Below are positions 14,131 through 47,063 of a DNA stretch of 64,000 nucleotides, piece by piece (position 1 is the first letter of the stretch; each line of letters begins with the position of its first letter). Below the pieces are notes generated by a model. The model saw nothing but the letters and a program-made list of their open reading frames with translations, was not told the DNA's origin and did no database searches. The stretch is from Hyphomonadaceae bacterium (lineage in GTDB: Bacteria; Pseudomonadota; Alphaproteobacteria; Caulobacterales; Aquidulcibacteraceae): NCBI GenBank assembly GCA_009773395.1, contig WRPI01000001.1, positions 372,001 to 436,000 of the forward strand, written 5' to 3'. The translations under genes and the position numbers were made by a program.

Positions 14131-14342
14131 AGAATTTGCTTTGGAATGGTCTTAAGGACAGGTTTGCCCTAAGCCCATTCGGTTATTGTGCCTTCGCGCC
14201 CTAGGTTTTTGTCAAGCCCCGAAGCCGCTTCGCGGTCGCGCTTTGGCGCGAGGGCTTGACAAAAACCTAGGGCGCATAACACACTTGATGAATGGTTTTG
14301 GAAAACAGATTTTTCCATAAACCATTCCAAAGCCACTTAATC
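14131..14342. repeat. Three-hairpin intergenic element, copy B
   Basis: Central 24-bp perfect stem GCGCCCTAGGTTTTTGTCAAGCCC / rc (14196-14275), flanking GAATGG...CCATTC hairpins, end sequences TTTGGAATGG / CCATTCCAAA. Confidence 0.9.
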
Positions 14343-38697: not shown

Positions 38698-38800
38698 AGA
38701 AAAATAGTTATCTTGCGCTTAGGTGCATCGGGCTTTCAAGCTCAAATACTTAAAGAATAAAAAGAGCGGCAAATTCGCTTCATCTTGAACTTCCAACGCT

Positions 38801-39019
38801 CTAACCCTTATCTGGACTATGTCGCAATTTATTATCTACGCGATACAGCAAGTGATCAAGCATCGCCTTTTCAGCGCGCGGGGCGGCTTCAATTGCGCGG
38901 CCCAGCCTTGCCCAATGTTCAATTTGACCAGCAATCGAGCGAGTTTGTAAATCACACGCATTGCGCGCTGATTCAATAATTTCCTTGGATAAGCGAACTG
39001 CAGTTATTGTCTCGGCCAT
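38801..39019 (-). CDS. ParD-like antitoxin family protein (orphan)
   Basis: AVRLSKEIIESARNACDLQTRSIAGQIEHWARLGRAIE. Confidence 0.75.
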   Translation of the reverse strand: MAETITAVRLSKEIIESARNACDLQTRSIAGQIEHWARLGRAIEAAPRAEKAMLDHLLYRVDNKLRHSPDKG

Positions 39020-46350: not shown

Positions 46351-46592
46351 AACGCTTTGCGCAAAAATGAGTGCTGTTTTGCGTGCCAAAAGCGAGACCA
46401 ACAAAGCAACCTTGGGCGATGGTAGTTAAAGGTAAAGCGATTTTGGAAAATTACATTTTGACCCGTGCTCTGGTTTTAGGTGAAATTGGATTTTTCGCTA
46501 TTGCGTCTTAATGGCACTAGAGCGCCGGATGTCCAGGATGAATTGATTTTGTCATCATGGAATCAATCTTTCAGGGTTGTTGGAAAGATATG

Positions 46593-46803
46593 TAAGTGGC
46601 TTAGGAATGGTTTATGGCGGACCTTGTTCCCCAAAACCATTCATCAAGTTTGTTATGCGCCCTAGGTTTTAGTCAAGTCCTCGCGCTAAAGCGCGACCGC
46701 GAAGCGGCTTCGGGACTTGACAAAAACCTAGGGCGCGAAGTTATAATAACCGAATGGGCTTAGGGCAGACCTGCCCCTAAGACCATTCCTAAGCAATTTC
46801 TTC
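46593..46803. repeat. Three-hairpin intergenic element, copy E (inverted orientation relative to B and D)
   Basis: Central stem GCGCCCTAGGTTTTaGTCAAGTCC...GGACTTGACAAAAACCTAGGGCGC (46657-46736), flanked by GAATGG/CCATTC hairpins. Confidence 0.88.
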
Positions 46804-46823
46804 AAAGCAATACTGAAACAACA

Positions 46824-46842
46824 GCTAATACGTCGTATTAGC
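46824..46842. promoter_or_regulatory. 19-bp perfect inverted repeat, possible operator
   Basis: GCTAATACG-T-CGTATTAGC. Confidence 0.45.
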
Positions 46843-47063
46843 ATAATAGTTTTTCCATGCATAAAAATCAAACCCTCAAAACCAAACACAATCCGCTTAA
46901 AGCGATTCTACTTGGGCATCCTTTGCGTTAGCCGTGACAACTGCGCTTAGTCACTTCTATAATTGTGGCCATTGGGTTAAAGAAAGCCACATCCCGATAA
47001 TCTTATAGATTTTTCGCCGATTGGGGCGCGAACCCATTATATTGCGAAAAAATGGAGAATGAC

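Follow-up and report, generated by a model that had tools for sequence, protein, structure and literature searches.

In a stretch of 64,000 nucleotides from a Hyphomonadaceae bacterium (the window), six loci represent a real family of structured repeats, apparently undescribed, which resembles REPINs without their usual transposase. REPINs are inverted REP doublets, which are also found as singlets and in tandem clusters (PMC3116915). The explanation that we prefer, and for which we see about an even chance, is a REPIN-like non-coding repeat family that is mobilised, in the carriers tested, by an enzyme other than RAYT/Y1. Membership of the REPINs is not claimed for the three-hairpin family because RAYT is absent where it was tested.

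Copies in the window and anatomy of the element

A preliminary description had ascribed to the six loci, A to F, a single layout of a left hairpin, a long central stem and a right hairpin, and all six match one covariance model (R2) over its whole length. This model was built from 25 close copies in the genome, the training set including B, D and E and not A, C and F. Copy B has a complete three-hairpin core (14136–14338, plus strand), which scores 229.1 bits with R2 (E 1.6e-61) and 172.5 bits with the broader model R3, and which folds at −108 kcal/mol versus −58 ± 4 for shuffles (z −12.4). Its arm X hairpin, GAATGG..CCATTC (14144–14180, plus strand), is helix 1 of alignment A1, with 95% of the cells paired, and its arm Y hairpin, GAATGGTTTTGG..CCATAAACCATTC (14290–14327, plus strand), is helix 3, with 98% paired. 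Between them lies the central stem (14196–14275, unstranded), seen both as helix 2 and in the fold: its arms at 14196–14219 and 14252–14275 form 24 of 24 pairs and hold GTCAAG/CTTGAC, and its tip consists of two mini-hairpins. Copies D (25491–25684, plus strand; R2 208.2 bits) and E (46594–46796, minus strand; R2 228.4 bits) also have complete cores, that of D with a short tip. Including both outer ends, copy E spans about 414 bp (46518–46931, minus strand), from an end motif at 46518–46538 found by an end-motif scan to a left outer arm reaching 46931, which was located by an outer-arm match (C7:418789–418931, minus strand). Copy A (2523–2717, unstranded) has a diverged core of which both orientations score alike (98.7 bits with R2; 112.3 bits with R3 on the minus strand). 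Copy C (22466–22665, unstranded; R2 85.4, R3 110.9 bits) is assigned with its BLAST relatives to a second subfamily of about five copies in the genome, which amends the preliminary description. Copy F (61238–61484, minus strand; R2 30.6 bits, E 5e-7) is degenerate, with an internal insert and a damaged centre, and was missed by R3 at E 1. The long central stem is perfect or nearly so in A to E (besides B, 21 of 22 pairs in A, 25 of 25 in C and 23 of 24 in both D and E), and the copies in the window do lie in both orientations.

The conserved unit is a core of 200–215 bp made of arm X, the long central stem and arm Y. The two arms are homologous in inverted orientation, making the whole core an imperfect palindrome, and for this reason each copy matches the model on the other strand too, reverse-strand matches being present at nearly every copy. 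The central stem of 20–25 bp, with GTCAAG...CTTGAC, carries a tip, made of two or three mini-hairpins, whose orientation with respect to the arms varies between copies, near balance (12:5 for the long form and 6:4 for the short form in the same genome as the window; 28:24 in g6, another genus of the family). Many copies in the own genome reach about 395–415 bp with the outer ends CTAgmGCATCGGAyGTTCAAGT, and there the core is about 90% conserved versus about 50–65% for the outer parts. This end motif, usually with TA at its terminus and nearly absent from congeners, also bounds other short repeats of the same genome (163 bp and about 120 bp elements). Copies in g6 have outer modules of an entirely different sequence or, in some cases, no outer module. 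An insertion of the core into a pre-existing outer element was rejected, as the outer arms were never found without the core. The inverted-duplicate arms, the flipping tip and the outer ends are additions to the preliminary description, as are two points described below, the placement between convergent genes and the reduction to one hairpin at some loci. The window itself holds one of the 163 bp repeats (26903–27065, unstranded; inverted repeat I1), with the same outer end motif, a different interior and relatives of the same length on contigs C7, C8 and C15, and an element of about 82 bp (38720–38803) bounded by the same motif.

Distribution and genomic context

About 36 places in the own genome match the covariance model, mainly on contigs C7 and C8, the copies being put at some 35–40, and BLAST with copy B gave 66 match pieces. 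The copies are strongly clustered on these two contigs, with none on a contig of 617 kb, and the clustering is not explained by GC skew. The covariance model found the element in none of four congeners searched and in all nine genomes of g6, with 13–42 matches each among the matches listed, a count that includes both strands of some copies and is capped by the scoring. In the remaining genera of the family the model matched just once, weakly, at a central stem (in G008). Elsewhere in the order, another family (f5) contains a small number of shorter relatives, among them the loci L334–L337, which have two hairpins, the GTCAAG/CTTGAC stem and a single hairpin beside it. A pattern scan of named genomes gave no match, and its single viral-contig match was rejected as a chance match inside other sequence. 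A known RNA family was likewise rejected: Rfam 15 gave no match above the gathering threshold in the window, in relatives it matched only a neighbouring tRNA, and its matches to the element number 0. The preliminary description had not recognised the family, had taken the loci for non-autonomous repeats or structured RNA/DNA elements, and had proposed a covariance-model search, with a lack of further copies or a match to a named family counting against it. The search gave further copies both in the own genome and in g6, no Rfam family matches, neither adverse outcome came about in the databases searched, and compensatory changes lie far above those in shuffles (see below).

The copies are intergenic, in agreement with the preliminary description, and are enriched between convergent genes, such spaces accounting for 13/29, 7/12 and 9/18 in three genomes versus 18/120 in the background, by mechanical ORF calls and with a background of 400 kb sampled from the own genome only. 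One copy in G033, which has no outer modules, fills nearly the whole gap between two convergent stops, which lie 20 and 22 bp from it. Orthologous loci differ in state, with three hairpins, a single hairpin or no element. The G033 convergent locus has three hairpins in G033 and G009, one hairpin with similar ends in G031, G035, G029 and G026, and no element in G018. At a second locus the element is present in G033 and G031 and absent in G009, which is about 235 bp shorter; a possible TTAGA repeat, rather than a clean target-site duplication, is seen at the element ends, the boundaries of which are ambiguous. The states at the two loci would fit gain as well as loss, and in an empty-site comparison within the own genus the neighbouring sequence was too diverged or rearranged. 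Tandem arrangements are seen in G018 and G026, where copies lie in pairs at a distance of 327 bp. Among the g6 loci L099, L144, L243 and L244 (G018, G026), those in G018 have palindromic repeats that are common there, GGTCCCGGATCGG..CCGGGATGACA and GTCATCCCC..GGGGACC, on either side, and many g6 contigs end at an element copy.

Compensatory change and strand asymmetry

The three-hairpin structure has been kept by compensatory change across genera whose copies differ greatly in sequence. In the cross-genus alignment, both partners have changed in 45 of 52 base pairs, with pairing retained (0 of 500 shuffles), and the signal is destroyed when the partner is slid by one base; 91.8% of the cells are paired and 317 have both-side changes, counts that lean towards structure because the alignment was fitted to the model and includes both strands of own copies. 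A MAFFT alignment of own-genome copies, which is free of this model-fitting bias, gives the same verdict (96.6% of cells paired, 64 cells with both-side changes, 0 of 500 shuffles). Part of the compensatory change could have arisen without selection, through template switching that corrects palindromes.

The helices also differ in which mismatches they tolerate, G.U being the tolerated pair on the strand being read and A.C its mirror on the opposite strand. By a test devised post hoc, after inspection of the data, the parsimony events in the own genome are 13 A.C versus 1 G.U in arm X, 0 versus 10 in arm Y and 2 versus 7 in the centre. In g6 they are 4 versus 33 in arm Y, many of them supplied by helix-end pairs, 9 versus 12 in arm X, which is no asymmetry, and 15 versus 7 in the centre. 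Wobble tolerance on the outward-reading strand is thus seen in both arms in the own genome and clearly only in arm Y in g6, the centre having no bias. From this split, the minus strand appears to be the one read in X and the plus strand the one in Y, in each case outward. As judged from these substitutions, the asymmetry suggests that each arm, and not the centre, is constrained as a single strand, namely the outward-reading one. It fits single-stranded DNA and RNA alike and cannot separate them; opposite strand preferences in X and Y are to be expected of an inverted doublet whose hairpin units are polar.

A tentative broader proposal takes the element either as a tip-inverting repeat whose two-way stem promoter fires two small outward hairpin RNAs into the convergent neighbours, or as a REPIN-like element moved by a new class of single-strand enzyme. 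Taken separately, a two-way promoter in the central stem, with TTGACA on each strand, that would produce two small outward hairpin RNAs, each antisense to the end of a convergent neighbour, is less likely than the REPIN-like reading but a live possibility. The outward wobble tolerance of the arms and its absence in the centre agree with such transcripts, as does the convergent orientation of the neighbouring genes; TTGAC in both stem halves is followed 16–19 nt on by GATAAT/ACAATT-like sequences on the X side or CAnnCT on the Y side, and in g6 conservation of these unpaired spacers is strong. However, a standard sigma-70 scan of copy B finds no promoter, the −10 on the Y side is poor, and a uniform U-tract is missing behind the arms in g6.

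Relation to known repeat systems

A REP carries a GTAG-type tetranucleotide at the hairpin foot, which is absent from the arm consensus here; arms X and Y do form an inverted pair of homologous hairpin units, and both singlet and tandem forms exist, as a single hairpin at one orthologous locus and as paired copies. With REPINs and BIMEs the family shares the inverted pair of hairpin units, singlets and doublets, tandem clusters, extragenic location and a hairpin or clover fold; it differs in its larger units and centre, with a central stem of at least 20 bp, GTCAAG/CTTGAC and a flipping mini-hairpin tip, and in having no RAYT/Y1 domain in the three carriers tested (PMC3116915). Mobilisation by RAYT was rejected on this last ground, the RAYT/Y1 domain PF01797 being absent from G000 (the own genome), G009 and G018 and detected in E. 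coli and other controls. If the REPIN-like reading is right, an enzyme supplied in trans would recognise arms X and Y in the form of single-stranded hairpins and would copy or move the element; in the carriers tested, this enzyme would not be of the RAYT/Y1 family. Single hairpins would then be collapse products of the hairpin pair, and the tip would flip because it is placed between near-perfect inverted repeats. Insertions would be retained chiefly downstream of genes, and most of all where two genes converge, as they do little harm there. With this family, REPIN-like sequence populations would reach into bacteria that have no RAYT genes, which poses the question of the enzyme responsible for their maintenance. 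Cross-genus covariation combined with strand-specific wobble makes it possible to test concretely if selection on such repeats acts on single-stranded DNA or on RNA. The orthologous loci, found as singlet, doublet or empty site, are a natural system in which gain and loss can be followed.

Two alphaproteobacterial families come close in other respects. Br-REP1 of Bradyrhizobium, whose central repeat, the palindrome CCGGAATCTCGAGATTCCGG of 20 bp, is found at about 200 sites, likewise has three palindromes in 3′ regions, including those between convergent genes, whereas inverted arm homology and cross-genus covariation are absent from the available part of its description (PMC5082802). The palindrome CCGGAATCTCGAGATTCCGG does not occur in the consensus of the three-hairpin element. 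The CIR elements of Caulobacter and Brucella, in a secondary description, are strictly intergenic inverted repeats with two arms, a linker and no ORF, like the present element in these respects, but measure about 110 bp and are defined by a GANTC methylation site in the terminal loop of one arm (PMC2229807). The three-hairpin element is 200+ bp with three hairpins, and neither its arm nor its central-stem consensus contains GANTC.

The location between convergent genes also bears on a device retained by the host at gene ends, such as a two-way transcription barrier or a protector of mRNA 3′ ends, which we consider unlikely. The enrichment in three genomes, the copy that nearly fills its convergent gap and the persistence of one or three hairpins at the G033 convergent locus in six species would all suit it, but the wobble tolerance suits outward rather than inward transcripts, the distribution is patchy (0 of 4 congeners), and purifying selection alone predicts an intergenic, promoter-avoiding location.

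Least probable of all is a classical MITE, cut and pasted through its outer ends by a DDE transposase (for example of the IS630 type, with a TA target) and carrying the core as cargo: the ends are common to the 163 bp and about 120 bp elements, mostly TA-terminated and nearly absent from congeners, but the better conservation of the core is the reverse of a normal MITE, the outer modules differ by genus and are missing from some g6 copies, and a non-exhaustive search saw no autonomous partner combining these ends with a transposase gene. The MITE-like Correia/NEMIS, RUP and ERIC are, like the three-hairpin family, dispersed and non-coding, the TA termini of the own-genome outer ends being a further likeness; they are defined by conserved terminal repeats, whereas in the three-hairpin family conservation lies in the interior and the ends are variable (PMC2229807).
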